DNA of 64,000 nucleotides. Source: Daedaleopsis sinensis (lineage: Eukaryota; Basidiomycota; Agaricomycetes; Polyporales; Polyporaceae). This document shows positions 1 through 41,200 of the stretch, piece after piece. How positions within the stretch are numbered: position 1 is the first letter of the stretch; every line of letters begins with the position of its first letter. The translations under genes were made by a program, and so were the position numbers. The stretch lies in contig CM066302.1 of assembly GCA_033807695.1 (NCBI GenBank), forward strand, positions 4,154,001-4,218,000, written 5' to 3'. The notes below the pieces were generated by a model, which had not been told where the DNA came from, did not search any database, and worked only from the letters and a program-made list of their open reading frames with translations.

Positions 1-1
1 C

Positions 2-2294
2 CTTGACGCTCGCTTTATTGCTGCACCTGAGGCTGTCTGGCGACTCTTCCATTATGAGATGCACAAGCAAATCCCTAACGTTGTCCGTCTTCAAATACAT
101 CTCCCAGGACAGCATATGGTCACATACAATCCACGAGAGCGGCTCGAAGACGTTCTGGCTCGCGCTGCCAATGAGAAGACCATGCTCACTGCTTTCTTCG
201 AAGCCAACGCTGACCCTGGTCCCCGCGGCGATCTCGCCCGTCTCTATACCTACCAGGAGTTCCCTCAACACTTCGTTTGGAGCAAGGTGAAGAAACGATG
301 GGATATACGGCAGAGAGGCTTTGCCCTTGGTCACATGTATTTCGTCTCACCCAACGCCGGTGACCAGTTTTATCTGCGAACCCTCCTAACGGTGACGCGA
401 GGGCCCACCTGCTTTGAAGACCTCCGGAGGGTGAATGGACAGCTCTGCGACTCATTCCATGCAGCATGTCTCGCCCGCGGCCTTCTCGAGGATGACGGTG
501 AATGGGAGCAGTGTTTGAAGGAGGCATGCGAGATGCAAACTGGGTCCCGCCTCAGATATCTCTTTGCAGTCATTCTTCACTACTGCAGTCCTGCACATCC
601 CGCTGAGTTGTGGGATAGATACCGATCATCTATCTGCGACGACCTCCCCCATCGCCTTCGTCTCATGGGCCGGCAGAACTTCTCTGAGGACGATGTTTAC
701 GACTACGGTCTCTTTTTGCTTGACAAGATACTTCGAGGGTATGGGACGTCGCTGAAAGAGCATGGCAGAATGCCTCTTCCCCTCCACGACTGGGAGGCCG
801 AAGTCGAGAATCCCCTGATCACCGAACAACTCGACTACGACATTGACGAAGAGTGTCGCCTTGCTGCATCGTGTATCCCTCAGCTCAACCCGGAGCAACG
901 TCATGCCTTTGACTGTATCATCGACTCAGCAATATTGGAGAAGGGCGAGACATATCTTCTTCACGGGGCTGGAGGCACCGGAAAGACATTTGTCTACAAA
1001 GCACTTTGCCATAAGGTTTGTGACCGAGTTTGTAATTGGCTCTCATATGGTACTGAAATATTATTCTAGCTTCGAGGCGAAGGGCACATTGCCCTCTGTG
1101 TATCCTCCTCCGGAATATCCTCACTTCTTCTATTAGGCAGCCGCACAGCGCACTCAATGTACAAGATTCCGATTGAGAGCCTCGGCCCCGAATCAACGTG
1201 TGGATTTAGCAAGGAGAGCTTGCGAGCAGCGCTGTTTCGTCGAGCCCGTGTGGGAGTTTGGGACGAGATCAGCAGCCAGCATTGTCACGCCATTGAGGCT
1301 GTGGATAGATCCCTTCGCGATGTCCGTGGAGTCGACCGCCCATTTGGAGAACTTACAATGGTATTTGGAGGCGACTTTCAACAGATGCTTCCTGTGGTTG
1401 TGCGCGGCTCACGGGAGGAGGTCGTCCATGCATCCCTTCGTTTTTCGCATCTCTGGCCTCACATCAAAGTCCTTCATCTTCGACAGAACATGTGACTCGA
1501 ACGTAGCGAGGACTCCACTGCATATGCCCAATGGCTTCTAGATGTCGGCCATGGACGGGTCCATGTTGATGGAGACCACTCAAAAGTGGCTCTACCAATG
1601 CACATGCTCCGAACTGACATCGATTCTCTCATCAACTCAGTCTATGGGGGTCTGACACCTATGACCGGTGTACCCCCTCCCGATTACTTCCTACATCGCA
1701 CAATTCTCTCTGCGCGTAATGAAGACGTCGACGACATCAACCGACTTGCTCTAGACCGCATGATGGGCGAGGAGCGCATCTTCTATAGTGCGGACACGAT
1801 ACAGACTGAGCCAGGCGCGGACCATGACCTCACCAGTAGTCCGTATGAAATTCCTGTGGAGTATCTTAGATCGCTGAGGCTCTCAGGACTTCCTCCAGGC
1901 GAGCTACGTATCAAGATTGGTTGCCCGGTGATCCTCTTGCGGAATCTTTGCCCATCCCTCGGTCTCTGCAATGGAACACGACTGACTGTAGCTCAAGTCT
2001 CAGAACGTGTACTTCAGTGCCGGATTATGGGAGGGCAGCATGATGGCGAGATGGTGCTTATTCCTCGCATTACACTCAATCCTGCCAATAGTGAGTTCCC
2101 ATTTAAGCTGTGTCGCCGTCAATTTCCTTTGAGACTTGCATTTGCTTTATCCATCAATAAAGCACAAGGACAATCTGTTAAATATGTTGGACTTGATCTG
2201 CGAATACCCGTTTTCTCACATGGACAACTTTATGTCGCACTTTCCCGTTCTACTTCATCCCGTAATGTCTCTGTCCTTCTTCCGGATGATGCGA
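2..2294 (+). pseudogene. Helitron Rep-helicase (PIF1-like helicase part), 5' cut by window edge, disrupted
   Basis: This is the C-terminal part of a Helitron replication initiator-helicase, which unwinds DNA during rolling-circle transposition. The frame is open from base 2, so the Rep part lies left of the window. PIF1/RecD-like superfamily 1 motifs appear in order: Walker A GAGGTGKT (about 967-990), Walker B as WDE (about 1260), the GGDFQQMLP motif (about 1369-1395), and near the end an ALSINKAQGQS block followed by QLYVALSR. A 54-bp intron at 1016-1069 (GTTTGT...TAG) removes an in-frame stop and restores the conserved reading. One TGA at 1493-1495 then interrupts the frame. The codons after it stay in frame with helicase sequence, so it looks like a point mutation. 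An LTR element at 2295 cuts off the last residues, which resume at 5258. It is therefore a recently disabled Helitron gene. A cellular PIF1 helicase is unlikely given the Helitron-type sequence before Walker A. Confidence 0.88.
1016..1069 (+). other. 54-bp intron in the Helitron helicase gene
   Basis: The donor is GTTTGT after codon AAG and the acceptor is TTCTAG. Removing it joins the Walker A region to an uninterrupted frame running from 1070. The intron is a multiple of three in length and contains an in-frame stop, so without splicing the protein would end just after Walker A. Confidence 0.75.
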
Positions 2295-2696
2295 TGATGT
2301 ATGTGACTTCTGCTCCGGGTGGTGCGTCGGTCGAAGGTGCGAAGGTCCGGCGAGGTGCTCACAAGGGGAGTCGGAGAAGCGGAGGAGGGAACGAGTACGC
2401 GGGAGCGCGGTCGGAAGTCGGGGGTCGTGTGTGTCGTATAACGAGCATCGAGAGTCGAACGGAAGTCGGACGTGAACGAGAGCGAGAGCGAGAACGAAAC
2501 GAGAGAACGAAAAACGAGTGATGTATTGCCAGGTGGAGATGGTGGTGGTACTCGTATTAGAGCTAAACTAAGCAGACCGAAAGTCCTCGAATAGTCCTAA
2601 GCGTCTAAGTAACCTAATTCGGAACGCTACCGAACTGTACGCTCAAAATCTACCGTAACGATCGAATACCCGCGCAGAACCATATGATGCTCATCA
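2295..2696 (-). repeat. 3' LTR of the gag-only element
   Basis: This 402-bp repeat has short inverted ends (TGATG...CATCA) and matches 4856-5257 with one difference seen. Its start is fused in frame to the interrupted helicase, so that frame runs artificially about 75 codons into the LTR and stops at 2519-2521. Confidence 0.9.
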
Positions 2697-2706
2697 TCCC
2701 CTCTTC
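2697..2706 (-). other. Polypurine tract
   Basis: On the minus strand this is GAAGAGGGGA, immediately upstream of the 3' LTR. That is the usual position for plus-strand priming in LTR retrotransposons. Confidence 0.7.
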
Positions 2707-2898
2707 GCTGAGATCTGGACCGTCCCCGGTCCACTCAACGCAGAGGATCGCGAAATGTAGGTGAAGATGTAAGTCTAACTTCGAAAATATAACGATGGAG
2801 AGCCTGAGGAAGATGTATGTGATAGACGAAAACAATATGAGTGAGTAGGATACGAGTCAGCTGTAACATAACGTAGTAGCGCAAGGGGTATGGATGGA

Positions 2899-4692
2899 CT
2901 AGAGAGATGGATGGCGTCGCGGCAGCTTCAAGCGCACACGTGGGTCGTGCTCAAAGCGGAGGTATCGGCGAACACGACGGGGCCAGATGACTGTGTCGCT
3001 ATGATGGCGGGATAAGCGGGGAAGTGGGGAACGACGATTGTCTTGCAGTGCAATAGGACGAGGCGGAGACGGAGGCGTGCTTGGGGGCTCAATGCTAATG
3101 GGAGTGAGTGCGGCGAAAGAGGAATTAACGTAAACAAACGAAGGCACGATGTCCGGTTGCTCGGGCTGATCGATAATAACGGGTGATTGTGGCGGAGGAA
3201 CGACGGGGTCGGAAAACGAGATGTCGACGACGAGAAGCGGAGATGGAGGCGCTGCGATCGAAGCCGTGGGCGATGAAAACGAGACGACGGGTGTGGACGA
3301 GGGCACGATAGCAGGCGAGGACGAGGGCGGCGTTGTGGAGACGACAAGAGACGGCGGGGACGAAGGCGATGGGGATGGGGACACGACGACGAACGACAAA
3401 GAGGGTGTGACGACGGCAGAAGGTGGGGGTGTGGCGGCAGACAACGAGGATGTGTTGGCGGCAGAAGGCGACAAGGATGCGGCAGGCGACGAAATACGCT
3501 GAAGCAAAATGGTCGCTGATACGGAGGACGTGGCGGCGGAGACTAGCGGCGATGGCGTAGTCGGCTGCACAGAACGCCAGGGGCTGGACTGCTCGGACTC
3601 GACGACCGGTGACTGTGCCTGGATTTCGCGAATTAAGGCTTCTTGATATGCTCGCTGACACTCGAGCGCGAAAATCGCCTTGCGCAAGCTTTCGATTCGC
3701 TCGTCTTCGTCGAGCTCGTGGACGTGCGCGGGACCGGAAGTAGAGACCGCTAAGGGTATAGGCTGCACGACGTGCTGAGGAGTCGGAGGGGAAGGGTGGA
3801 CGACTGGGCGAGGAGGCGAGACGACGGGGCGAGGGGACGCAGCGGCGGGGACGACGTCAATACCGCTAGATGACGGACGCGCTGAGGATACCGGCATGCT
3901 CGTCGTCGCGGGGAGCTGAGGCCTGGATTCGACTGGTCCAAACGCGGGTGCGCTAGCTCGTACCTGCTGCGTGAAACTGTTCGCCACCGTCTTCAAAGCG
4001 CGTGCTGCTTCGCTGAGCTCGGACTTGACTGCGGGAGCGGGAGATGGCAGCGTACGAGGCGAGGCGAAAAACGGTTGTGCGAACTGATTGCACGCGGCGG
4101 TTGTTGTCGCTGTCGCTCGTAGAACGTGATGTGCAGCGTCGGTGACTTGAACGATCGAGTAGGGTCGTCGAGGAGCGAGAACGTGCGGGTAAACGACGCG
4201 CAAACGATCGAGGACTTGTGTGCGCAGTGGCTCTTGAATGCCGTGGATAAACATAAAATCGCGGTCGTCTGGGTCGAGGTAGCTGCTGTCGACGAGAGGT
4301 GTCGCGATATCGCGGAATCGACGACTGTACTCGCTGAACTCCTTCAACGACTTGATGCCGGTGCGCACTGTCGTCGTAACGAGGGTATCGAGGTCGTGCG
4401 CCGTGTAGAGAAACTGTCCGTGATCGCCGATATAATCCGCGAGAATGACGCGCTTGAACTGATCGAACGACTTGCGCGGATCGACGAATTCGGGGTACGC
4501 TCGCCATAGCGTCTTCTCTGAGTCGGGGGTGTATCGAACCGCATGCTGCTTCTTCTCCTGCGAGTCGATGACGGCGGCTATCTGGAATAGATACTCGAGC
4601 TCGTCGAAGAAGCCGGTAATCGAGTGGGGGACGTCGGGATCGAAGGTCGGTGCGCCGGGATAACCACGCGGAGGCATATGAAACGTCGTCAT
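2899..4692 (-). CDS. Retrotransposon Gag-like protein
   Basis: A single-exon, 597-codon gene fills most of the LTR element. Residues about 20-215 form the globular part and resemble the capsid-like gag domain of Ty3/Gypsy elements: SITGFFDELEYLFQ near the N-terminus, then a basic/aromatic helical stretch (FDQFKRVILADYIGD, FSEYSRRFRDIA, FMFIHGIQEPLR). The C-terminal half is low-complexity Ser/Pro/Thr/Val. I see no CCHC zinc knuckle and no pol sequence downstream. The start is the first ATG, about 145 bases inside the 5' LTR after the primer site. Its likely role is to form the particle that packages element RNA, with enzymes from a related full-length element. That role is family inference. 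Confidence 0.75.
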   Translation of the reverse strand: MTTFHMPPRGYPGAPTFDPDVPHSITGFFDELEYLFQIAAVIDSQEKKQHAVRYTPDSEKTLWRAYPEFVDPRKSFDQFKRVILADYIGDHGQFLYTAHDLDTLVTTTVRTGIKSLKEFSEYSRRFRDIATPLVDSSYLDPDDRDFMFIHGIQEPLRTQVLDRLRVVYPHVLAPRRPYSIVQVTDAAHHVLRATATTTAACNQFAQPFFASPRTLPSPAPAVKSELSEAARALKTVANSFTQQVRASAPAFGPVESRPQLPATTSMPVSSARPSSSGIDVVPAAASPRPVVSPPRPVVHPSPPTPQHVVQPIPLAVSTSGPAHVHELDEDERIESLRKAIFALECQRAYQEALIREIQAQSPVVESEQSSPWRSVQPTTPSPLVSAATSSVSATILLQRISSPAASLSPSAANTSSLSAATPPPSAVVTPSLSFVVVSPSPSPSSPPSLVVSTTPPSSSPAIVPSSTPVVSFSSPTASIAAPPSPLLVVDISFSDPVVPPPQSPVIIDQPEQPDIVPSFVYVNSSFAALTPISIEPPSTPPSPPRPIALQDNRRSPLPRLSRHHSDTVIWPRRVRRYLRFEHDPRVRLKLPRRHPSL

Positions 4693-4835
4693 GATCGAGG
4701 AATGCGCTTGGACAGGCGGGAGATGAGCTTGAAAGTCAAGGGACGTAGAGCGCTAGGGGATGTAGGACAGGAATGGGGAAGGGAAAGAGGGGACTCGCCA
4801 GGTGATGAAAGCCTCGTCAATCCATCAGGATTTGA

Positions 4836-4853
4836 CCCTCGCGGTGGGCTCCA
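4836..4853 (-). other. Candidate tRNA primer-binding site
   Basis: On the plus strand this reads CCCTCGCGGTGGGCTCCA, ending in the CCA expected of a tRNA 3' end. On the minus strand it begins TGG two bases after the LTR end CA, the classical arrangement for minus-strand priming. I cannot name the tRNA without a search. Confidence 0.65.
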
Positions 4854-4855
4854 AA

Positions 4856-5257
4856 TGATGTATGTGACTTCTGCTCCGGGTGGTGCGTCGGTCGAAGGTG
4901 CGAAGGTCCGGCGAGGTGCTCACAAGGGGAGTCGGAGAAGCGGAGGAGGGAACGAGTACGCGGGAGCGCGGTCGGAAGTCGGGGGTCGTGTGTGTCGTAT
5001 AACGAGCATCGAGAGTCGAACGGAAGTCGGACGTGAACGAGAGCGAGAGCGAGAACGAAACGAGAGAACGAAAAACGAGTGATGTATTGCCAGGTGGAGA
5101 TGGTGGTGGTACTCGTATTAGAGCTAAACTAAGCAGACCGAAAGTCCTCGAATAGTCCTAAGCGTCTAAGTAACCTAATTCGGAACGCTACCAAACTGTA
5201 CGCTCAAAATCTACCGTAACGATCGAATACCCGCGCAGAACCATATGATGCTCATCA
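4856..5257 (-). repeat. 5' LTR of the gag-only element
   Basis: This is the second copy of the 402-bp LTR, lying upstream of gag in the element's own minus-strand orientation. It would carry the element promoter. No TATA box was assigned. Confidence 0.9.
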
Positions 5258-5308
5258 GCGAATGGGGTGACCGCTAACATAGTGTATCCAGAGGTACTAT
5301 TAGACTAA
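5258..5308 (+). pseudogene. Last codons of the Helitron helicase, separated by the LTR insertion
   Basis: Immediately after the LTR element and the duplicated GCGA, 16 codons plus TAA continue the helicase frame. They end in the short Ile/Val-Tyr-Pro-Glu-Val-Leu-Leu type tail that Helitron helicases commonly carry. This fixes the insertion point and shows the helicase originally ended here. Confidence 0.75.
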
Positions 5309-38274: not shown

Positions 38275-41200
38275 CTATTGATACATGATATGCCTGTGGG
38301 GATGGGAACACTCTCATCAGCCTCTCTCCAAGCAACAGATAGATATAAAAGGGACTCAAGCCTCCGCCGCAGAGAACTCGGTGCTCAGGAGCAGCCGCAG
38401 GCAAGAAAAGAAAGCACACGCACGCGGTGTCAAACTGCTCCATCAAGTCCAGCACCTGCTCGAGGTGCGCGAACCCGAGGCGCTCCTGTCGGCCGAGCGC
38501 AAGCGCGCCCGCGGTCTTGACGATGTTCTTGATCTGCCGGCCGTTCACCTTCTTCTCCGCGAGCGTGTGCAGGTCGTCGTACGAGAGCCCGCCATGCGGC
38601 GCGTCTGCCCCGTTCACCCGCTTGAGGAACGCGAGCCAGATCTGGCGCCGCGCGTCCGAGGAGAGGTCCGCGTACCGGAGCGAGACGTGGATGCGCGACT
38701 GGAAGGCCTCGTCGAAGACGCGCACGCGGTTCGTCGTTAGGAAGAGGATCCCGCGGAAGTACCTGCAAGCCGGGCGGGTGCGCGGAACGAACGACGGGGA
38801 CAAGGACAGGGACAGCGCCGAGGACGTGGACGACACATACACATAGGTGAGCAGGCATGGTCAGCATCTCATCCCATGGAGCAGGAAGGTGAAGGTAGGA
38901 TGCGGGCTTACTCTAGCTGCCGAAGGAAGACCGCGACCATGGCGTTCCGCTCGAGGTGGGCGAGTGTGCGCTCTTCCAGGAACACGTCCGCCTCGTCGAT
39001 GAGGACGACCGCACCCCACATCGCGGACACCTTGAGGATCGTAGTGAGGTGGCTGTCCAGGGCCTCGGCATGCGTGCCGAGGTCGGCCGCTCCCACCACG
39101 TACAAGGGCTCTAGAGAGGTGAGAGCGGAGGCCGGTAAGTGCTATACTCGCGGTGGGACGCAGCTCGACTGGTAACAGTGAACACTCACTTCTCACGTCT
39201 ATTACGAGGGTGAGTGTTAGTTAAGTGAAAAGAGGTCGGCACAGGTCAGCAGTGTGCGATGCTCACGAGCATGGGAGGGACGTACATTCGCTCATCGCTT
39301 CCGCAGTCAGACTCTTGCCGGTGCCGGGGTTGCCAAAGAGGTTGATGACGAGGCCGTGGCCCTTGCCCGTGACGAAGTCGTCAAACTTCTTTGACATCCC
39401 CGCGCTGTGGGACTCGACGAGGGTCTTGAGGACGTGCTTGTGCTTGGGCGGGATGACGAGCTGCTCGAACGCCTCGTCGTTCCATTGGAACTGCTCGACA
39501 TGCTCGACGATGAACTCCACTGCGCAGCATAGGGACAGGAATCAGCATCGGCGTCGAAGGGTTCCGACAGAGACCACCCTCGACTATCAATAGCGAGAGA
39601 AAAGAGAAGAAGGCACTCACACCAGTGCTTGTCTGCGAAACTAAAACCATACACGATCGGCGGCGTGAGGAGAAGCTCGTCTTCGGTTAGCTCACGGGTG
39701 TCTTCAGGGGCCGCGTTGGTCTGTCGCGCACGCCGCGCGTGTCTATCTATGTCCTGGCCGGCGAGGTTCTTCATGACACGAGGCAAAGTGGGGTAGTTCG
39801 GGACAGTGTCCGCGAACGTCTCTGTGGGCACGGTCAGCTCGCTCACACGTCGGTCCCGGCAGAGAGAAACGACTACTCACTCCGGTCAATCATGATCCTC
39901 GAGTTCACCTGCAGCGGCAGCGAATTGAACGACGACGTCAGCGAGCTCTCACGGATAGCGACCGAGGACGTGCACGGGGAAACTTGAGACGCACGCTATG
40001 TTTGACATGGCTCGTCTCCTTGAACCTGAACGCGAGTCCGCGGTACGCAACGTGATGCATGCCGCCCGCCAGCGTCGCCCACTTCCTCCCGCGCGCGACG
40101 AGGCGCTCCTTGAGCCCCTCCATACCCCCCGGCCCTGCGTAGTACTGGATCGGGTACGCAATCAAGCTCGAGATCTTCTTCGTGCCCTTGAAGCGGGGGA
40201 CGTCGATGACGCGCCCCATGCCCGCATAGCCGTACGTTGACGACTGGGGCTGCGACGCGTTCGCACCTGTGCCGAGGTCACCAAGGTTCTCGGCGGGCCC
40301 CCCTATGTCAACTTCTACATACTCGACGACGAGCCGCCAGAAGAACTGCATCTGCTGCTCCTGCGACGTCTTGGACGTGAGCAGCCCCGTCGGGTCGTAC
40401 GCGGCGGACACGGGCGCTTGGTTGTCCGCCTTCTGGCAGAGCTCGGAGAGCACGAGGCGGACGCAGCGCGGCTCGGACGTGATCGGGCAGAGCACGTAGA
40501 GCGTGGTCTTGCCGGGAACGAAGAGAGACCAGAGCAGGTTGAAGGTGATCTCGTCGTGCTTGAGGAGCGATGCGAGGTTGTCGAGCGTGCTTCCGTACGT
40601 GTCGCGGAGGTAGCCGAGGAGGTGCGCGAGGTGCGCGTGCGTCCGTCGGACGGGCGTATCCTCGTCCTCGGGCTCGTTCGGCAGCTTCGCGGCGAGCGAG
40701 TCAAGGTGTGCTTGCAGCTCCGGGAACCATGCGAGGAGCGTATTCGGGTCGATCTGGGAAAAGAGATTGGGTTTTAGCCTTCTCGGACACGGATGAGATG
40801 ATTCGTTTGAATGCGACGCACTCGGAGCGGCTTGGCGGTCCACGAGATGCCCTGCACGTGCCCGATAACGTCCTGGCCGACCTGGATCAGCTCCGGGCTG
40901 TTAATCTGGATTATGGTCGTCACGTTGAAGGTGTTCATCTTCCCGTCCTGGCTGTGGTTGAACTTCCTGATGATCGAGAACGCGTACACCGTATACTTCT
41001 GCGCGTCATTCTTCCCGGTCGGCTTTTCTTCCGACATCGGTGGCGCGGGGCGGATCGTCCACTGGTTCTTAAGCGGGTCGTGAATTTCGTGCAGGTACTT
41101 GACCTCGAGTACGCTCCCTACGGGTCCTTCTGGAACGGGATCCTCGGTGGGAGGGATGGCGCCCTGGCCAGGATCGAGCTCGACCATCTCGCCCGCCTGG

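Follow-up and report, generated by a model that had tools for sequence, protein, structure and literature searches.

A gag-only retrotransposon family of the fungus Daedaleopsis sinensis with a selected capsid gene and probable use of enzymes from pol-bearing relatives

We have analysed a 64,000-nucleotide stretch of the Daedaleopsis sinensis genome (contig CM066302.1, positions 4,154,001 to 4,218,000; hereafter the window), in which a complete retrotransposon of 2,963 bp is inserted in a helicase gene. This element is probably a recently inserted member of a semi-autonomous Ty3/gypsy family of the gag-only type, with a selected capsid protein and with enzymes obtained in trans from pol-bearing relatives. 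It has the attributes of a TR-GAG element: two long terminal repeats (LTRs) flanked by a target-site duplication, a primer-binding site and a polypurine tract, a Gag open reading frame (ORF) as its sole ORF, and an interior free of pol. Its assignment to Ty3/gypsy is by relationship only. The features of the element and of the gene that it splits are the following:

2295..5257, minus strand (sense): complete gag-only LTR retrotransposon, 2,963 bp
4856..5257, minus strand: 5' LTR with respect to gag, TGATG...CATCA, 402 bp, one difference from its partner
2295..2696, minus strand: 3' LTR with respect to gag, 402 bp
2291..2294: target-site duplication GCGA, left copy, with the NCGN pattern shared across the family
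5258..5261: target-site duplication GCGA, right copy
4834..4853, minus strand: primer-binding site TGGAGCCCACCGCGAGGGTC, 20-nt complement of the tRNA-Lys(UUU) 3' end plus CCA
2899..4692, minus strand: gag ORF, 597 codons, with a capsid-like part at residues 1-205 (4078-4692)
2716..2733, minus strand: hairpin TGGACCGGGGACGGTCCA, 7-bp stem and 4-nt loop, upstream of the polypurine tract
2697..2706, minus strand: polypurine tract, in sense GAAGAGGGGA
1..2290, plus strand: Helitron-type PIF1 helicase, upstream part, running past the left window edge
5258..5308, plus strand: final 16 helicase codons with the stop, the frame being taken up again at the second GCGA

In sense order the element reads LTR, two bases, primer site, gag ORF, hairpin, polypurine tract and LTR. 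A sequence-only reading of the window had described the two 402-bp LTRs with one difference, the GCGA duplication, the primer site, the polypurine tract and a single intact 597-codon gag, and all of them were recovered at the positions given above, with the strand of gag newly assigned. The only LTR difference (1/402; 2632 G and 5193 A in the LTR-LTR comparison) fits the young age that had been ascribed to the element. The absence of pol between the LTRs was also borne out, as the 1,377-amino-acid (aa) Pol of a relative described below gave a best E value of 7 in a search within the element, which rules out a pol hidden there, and the Gag of the same relative matched the element at E=9e-42.

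The genome searched comprised 51.6 Mb in 24 contigs, and the searches scored part of the candidates only (the best 34 of 181 in the case of pol). The helicase shows Pfam matches to PIF1 and Pif1_2B, and we take it to belong to a Helitron from the helicase type and the C-terminus, the Rep region presumably lying beyond the window edge. Read over the duplication, the protein ends in ...LLPDDANGVTANIVYPEVLLD with the stop at 5308, in agreement with the proposal that its frame resumes at the second GCGA. The empty-site comparison was made with paralogous helicase copies of the same genome: the 145-aa helicase end across the junction has eight matches, five of which cross the junction and reach residue 143-145, while the window's own match stops at residue 131 and two short ones end before the junction. 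The five uninterrupted paralogs (contig:position) are found at C4:154698 (78% identity), C10:983787 (74%), C1:308134 (60%), C4:4517805 (60%) and C7:1702549 (43%). Upstream of the insertion there are two in-frame stops, near 1067 and 1494, the rest of 899-2290 being open, which means that the window copy of the host gene does not form a single open frame.

Other genomic copies of the 402-bp LTR had been anticipated, and at least 40 matches were found, which include intact units, decayed gag-only members and solo LTRs. There are five intact Gags of 597-623 aa in units with an LTR spacing of 2.56-2.68 kb, which leaves no room for pol in any of them. Besides the window copy, they are located as follows:

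C7:274524-277550: gag-only unit with intact frame, LTR pair 1/434
C6:3697788 onward: gag-only unit with intact frame, LTR pair 0/409
C4:4453983-4459702: three-LTR tandem with two gag frames, outer LTR pair 9/430

The sequence-only reading had also suggested a search for a pol-bearing full-length relative with the same LTR, and none was found among the at least 40 LTR matches. Among the matches listed, 3/40 lie within 12 kb of any reverse transcriptase (RT) or pol position (185 of 216 positions compared, the 31 dropped being second segments beside typed ones):

C7:2939917: LTR match near RT/pol, one end cut
C3:4819468-4819851: solo LTR with an ACGT duplication (L022), between RVT_1 matches at C3:4818012 and C3:4821510
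C7:388242: LTR match near RT/pol, a 119-bp fragment with pol 10 kb away

None of the three shows a pol with such an LTR on either side among the matches listed, and to that extent the gag-only status holds for the element and for the family.

The tandem on C4 (L004, L005, L007, L034 and L035) contains two different gag-only lineages within one GCGG duplication. Its middle LTR has 28 and 37 substitutions relative to the outer two, which differ from each other by 9, as if another cDNA had recombined in. An end-to-end comparison of three copies (window, C7 and C6) revealed sharp mosaics. The C7 copy differs from the window copy by 0-5% over most of its length, by 13-15% in gag (sense 901-1125) and by up to 24-27% in the middle of the LTR. 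The C6 copy is within 5% over sense 826-2325 and mostly at 9-41% elsewhere, with low-difference spots near sense 226-375 and at the end. Such mosaics would be expected if the template were switched from one gag-only RNA to another within the same particle, and ectopic gene conversion may be an alternative source of them.

The claim that the particle protein is kept received support from purifying selection over the five intact gag frames. In a Nei-Gojobori analysis of all 10 pairs, with decayed copies left out, the ratio of nonsynonymous to synonymous substitution rates (dN/dS) was 0.20-0.34 for the whole gene and below 1 in 10/10 pairs; it was 0.09-0.20 in the first 220 residues, where dS reached 0.94, and in the tail it was 0.28-0.52. 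For one pair, a rough Fisher test based on approximate numbers of sites yielded p ~6e-30. These values, well under 1 across pairs, indicate that the frames are kept by selection and are not just undamaged, although dS is not a clean clock here because the gag-only copies are mosaics.

The window Gag has a Ser/Pro-rich tail and a conserved basic C-terminus, gave no Pfam match at E<=1, and lacks both the zinc knuckle and the protease present in relatives. The predicted structure of residues 1-212 resembles retroviral-type capsids, and the fold matches of this model include Arc, PEG10 and Ty1 p22, which are Gag-derived capsids with host roles. Seven Gag relatives were found, the named ones coming from Lentinus, Ganoderma, Trametes and Paxillus, and that of Ganoderma adspersum (V8D89_001235) is knuckle-less and groups with the window Gag.

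If Pol is supplied by a relative, the best candidate that we have found is a family with members on C11 and C8, which stands out because of its hairpin, matching duplications, young LTRs and open frames:

C11:2858398-2866730: C11-type element (L066), 918-aa gag frame, overlapping 1,377-aa pol frame, 663-bp LTRs with 3 differences
C8:3632431-3640764: C11-type element, 919-aa gag frame, Pol 97% identical to that of the C11 copy, LTR pair 0/661

The C11 element belongs to the same clade as the window element. Its gag has the zinc knuckle and ends in a protease-like match (below the Pfam cut-off), and its capsid part is 39% identical to that of the window Gag. Its pol encodes RNase H followed by an H2C2 integrase domain. 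No RVT_1 match was obtained in this Pol (L066:532-4665, minus strand) at E<=0.1, so RVT_1 searches miss the RT of this family, and the sequence PFIDDV stands at the position expected for the RT catalytic motif.

Several cis signals connect both kinds of element. The primer site pairs with the 3' terminus encoded by a tRNA-Lys(UUU) gene (C10:2711442-2711534) followed by CCA, and TGGAGCCCACCGCGAGGG is identical in gag-only and C11-type elements. The 18-nt hairpin TGGACCGNGGACGGTCCA, with one loop base left free, occurs 10 times in the 51.6 Mb (reversed control 0), 6 times in the gag-only family and 4 times in C11-type elements, whose hairpin differs from that of the gag-only elements by one loop base. 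Allowing up to two mismatches gave 35 occurrences (reversed control 11), and this search ruled out a hairpin private to the gag-only elements and one pol family: a variant, GGGACCGGGGACGGTCCC (GGGACC...GGTCCC), in which both sides of the outer pair are changed and pairing is kept, is present at 13 sites, 12 of them having a primer-site core of the matching orientation no more than 12 kb away, and an AGGACC...GGTCCC form is found at 3 sites. The exclusivity is thus limited to hairpins whose outer pair is T-A, of which exact copies occur in no elements other than the gag-only and C11-type ones. The gag-only hairpin with its flank folds better than shuffled sequences (z -3.6, 1/200 as good), but the C11 hairpin with its flank does not (z -0.23, 72/200 as good). 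Furthermore, both kinds of element have a hairpin-TCAG-polypurine 3' end, and their LTR ends have TGATG.GCA and ATCA in common, with different adjacent bases.

They also agree in their target sites. Counting only insertions with two recognisable ends and equal flanks, the nine gag-only duplications (in gag sense) are TCGC, CCGA, GCGG, CCGC, GCGG, ACGG, CCGG, CCGT and ACGT, that is, NCGN in 9/9, and those of C11-type elements, the pol-bearing type scored here (the 968-, 1065- and 1252-frame families were left out), are GCGA, ACGT and TCGG, NCGN in 3/3. As CG makes up 9.6% of the window dinucleotides, 12/12 would have a chance of ~6e-13 if the sites were independent. The simplest reading of these duplications would be one shared integrase habit. 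Eight copies with a single end were surveyed as well, and 5/8 have CG at the kept end (L013, L014, L020, L021 and L023); the flank survey excludes L025-L030 and 10 LTR matches without a locus. The earlier suggestion that pol is borrowed is thus made probable by short cis signals shared with pol-bearing relatives (the primer site, the hairpin near the 3' end, part of the bases at the LTR ends and the NCGN duplications of 4 bp) and not by a common LTR.

A short element on C10 (L086, C10:2795300-2798900) keeps the LTR end, primer site, hairpin and polypurine tract and is related by its ends to the 1065-frame family, to which 222 bp round the primer site and 96 bp round the hairpin are 86-94% identical. 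Its interior is largely tandem repeats, and no gag or pol match was present among the genome matches listed. It looks like a natural deletion experiment in which the primer-site end and the hairpin/polypurine end would be what is required in cis. Further primer-site-to-hairpin spacings of 3-4 kb occur at C8:2886973, C11:795429 and C4:3962511, L086 being the one of the four that was read.

We consider mobilisation in trans of elements with a working Gag to be probable from these comparisons, and the C11/C8 family to be the Pol donor somewhat more probable than otherwise. A number of observations weigh against this picture. The LTR searches gave no match between the LTR bodies of the gag-only family and those of the C11 type. 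Pol is whole in 2/4 of the C11-type hairpin elements (C11 and C8:3633265), being in broken pieces at C8:3674101-3676428 and not among the matches listed at C9:852156-861818. By phylogeny, the closest Gag lineage in the genome is not the C11 type but C3:1769396, with pol missing in the stretch read. Regarding the target sites, the C6 copy (TCGA/CCGC) and L017 (CCTG/CCGG) have unlike flanks and were excluded from the count of duplications, and 3/8 single-ended copies lack CG (L016 CCAT, L019 CTGG and L024 CCAC). Finally, the same primer site is also present in several other pol families, so that it cannot single out one donor, and the variant hairpin reaches a third pol family, the 1065-frame one, where in the one stretch read (L085) it has the same position ahead of the polypurine tract.

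These last two points could favour mobilisation by another tRNA-Lys-primed pol family (968-, 1065- or 1252-frame), a possibility to be taken seriously, if with less confidence than a C11/C8 donor. The 15-nt core of the primer site has 80 exact genome occurrences (one being the tRNA gene itself; reversed control 0), many of which adjoin gag relatives and lie beside these families, and the 968-frame family has many pol-bearing copies with near-equal scores (for example L068, C9:1775400-1785300, where the 9.9 kb examined yielded no LTR pair). Against another donor, the T-A form of the 18-nt hairpin is exact only in gag-only and C11-type elements, and the C11-type copies are young (LTR differences 3/663 and 0/661). 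It is rather improbable that the element is a plain parasite of both the Gag and the Pol of its relatives, its own gag being a leftover still undecayed: the missing pol and several decayed family members agree with it, and so does L086, which keeps the terminal signals and has no listed gag match, so carrying gag is not needed, but five intact frames under strong constraint at dS up to 0.94 and a knuckle-less relative in Ganoderma argue to the contrary. We give very little credit to the idea that Gag is being domesticated, either as a protein of the host or as a factor that restricts related elements, with mobile copies as incidental. Hosts elsewhere use Gag-derived capsids, as Arc, PEG10 and Ty1 p22 illustrate, but in three copies the two LTRs are almost the same, and the intact copies keep gag between LTRs, primer site and polypurine tract with no single locus standing out.

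According to the preferred explanation, a semi-autonomous family with trans-supplied enzymes, the RNA would start in the minus-strand 5' LTR and encode the selected capsid protein, and it would be packaged in particles of its own, perhaps also of related, Gag. Reverse transcription, primed by tRNA-Lys(UUU) and finished from the polypurine tract, would use the RT of a relative, whose integrase could then insert the product at CG-centred 4-bp sites. Transcription, particle formation, co-packaging and the identity of the donor are the steps that we infer here. A more ambitious version, which we regard as unlikely, is that the gag-only lineage is older than the genera concerned and provides capsids for common use in polypore-type fungi; after loss of the knuckle, Gag would recognise RNA through the conserved 3' hairpin and a new basic C-terminus, gag-only and pol-bearing RNAs would enter the same particles, and two element families, evolving together, would divide capsid and enzymes between them.

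Gag-only elements are known from plants, and we have compared ours with published systems. The Arabidopsis TR-GAG AT5TE33540 resembles it in having two LTRs, a single gag ORF (562 aa) and no pol, and its transposition was seen in ddm1; it is a plant Copia element with a highly similar, potentially autonomous sister (PMC8704663), whereas the window element is fungal, Ty3/gypsy by relationship, has a Gag without the zinc knuckle of its relatives and showed no LTR-sharing autonomous sister among at least 40 LTR matches. RLG_Quinta of wheat is a gypsy gag-only family whose pol-bearing partner, RLG_Cereba, was recognised from the primer site, the LTR ends and the polypurine tract; its gag lineages have recombined, for which template switching was proposed (PMC11302176). 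Both gypsy cases are thus linked to a pol family by cis signals and show recombination of gag lineages, but Quinta and Cereba share LTR parts and target centromeres (PMC11302176), while the LTR bodies of our family and the C11 type are unmatched, an RNA hairpin and NCGN duplications form part of the link, and copies are few. The semi-autonomous RLG_Sabrina_SA and RLG_WHAM of wheat keep Gag-protease and lack RT and integrase, and their cross-mobilisation has been attributed to other families with which they have little sequence homology (PMC9744471); the window element likewise keeps Gag without RT and integrase, but has neither protease nor knuckle.

Fungi, including Agaricomycetes, have non-autonomous LTR elements without gag, the Helenus TRIMs, whose LTR contains a tRNA-like sequence and whose duplications in fungi measure 5 bp (PMC10886601). 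They have in common with the window element the primer site, the polypurine tract and the reliance on autonomous counterparts, and differ from it as the latter keeps a long gag and makes 4-bp duplications; the word gag is absent from the text of the Helenus paper (PMC10886601). A 2011 survey of fungal LTR elements described gag as hard to detect by profiles (PMC3248453). Among the papers listed in searches of the open-licence PMC literature we found no fungal gag-only LTR element, the 12 listed for TR-GAG all being on plants to judge by their titles, which is weak evidence of absence.

Elsewhere in the window, an ORF at 39938-40843 (minus strand) has a match to Pfam DUF7025 (E 2.3e-14), and seven other window ORFs gave no match at E<=0.001 in the same scan.

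It is common to regard non-autonomous LTR elements as wreckage. In the present family, the selection on Gag, the sharp mosaics and the shared signals make the idea of an enzyme-borrowing capsid gene directly testable. L086 suggests the primer-site end and the hairpin/polypurine end as a minimal cis kit, and the hairpin, in which both bases of the outer pair change together from one family to another, is a concrete candidate for a signal in packaging or priming. A compact fungal genome such as this one is a setting where the idea of a mobile capsid gene can be tested.

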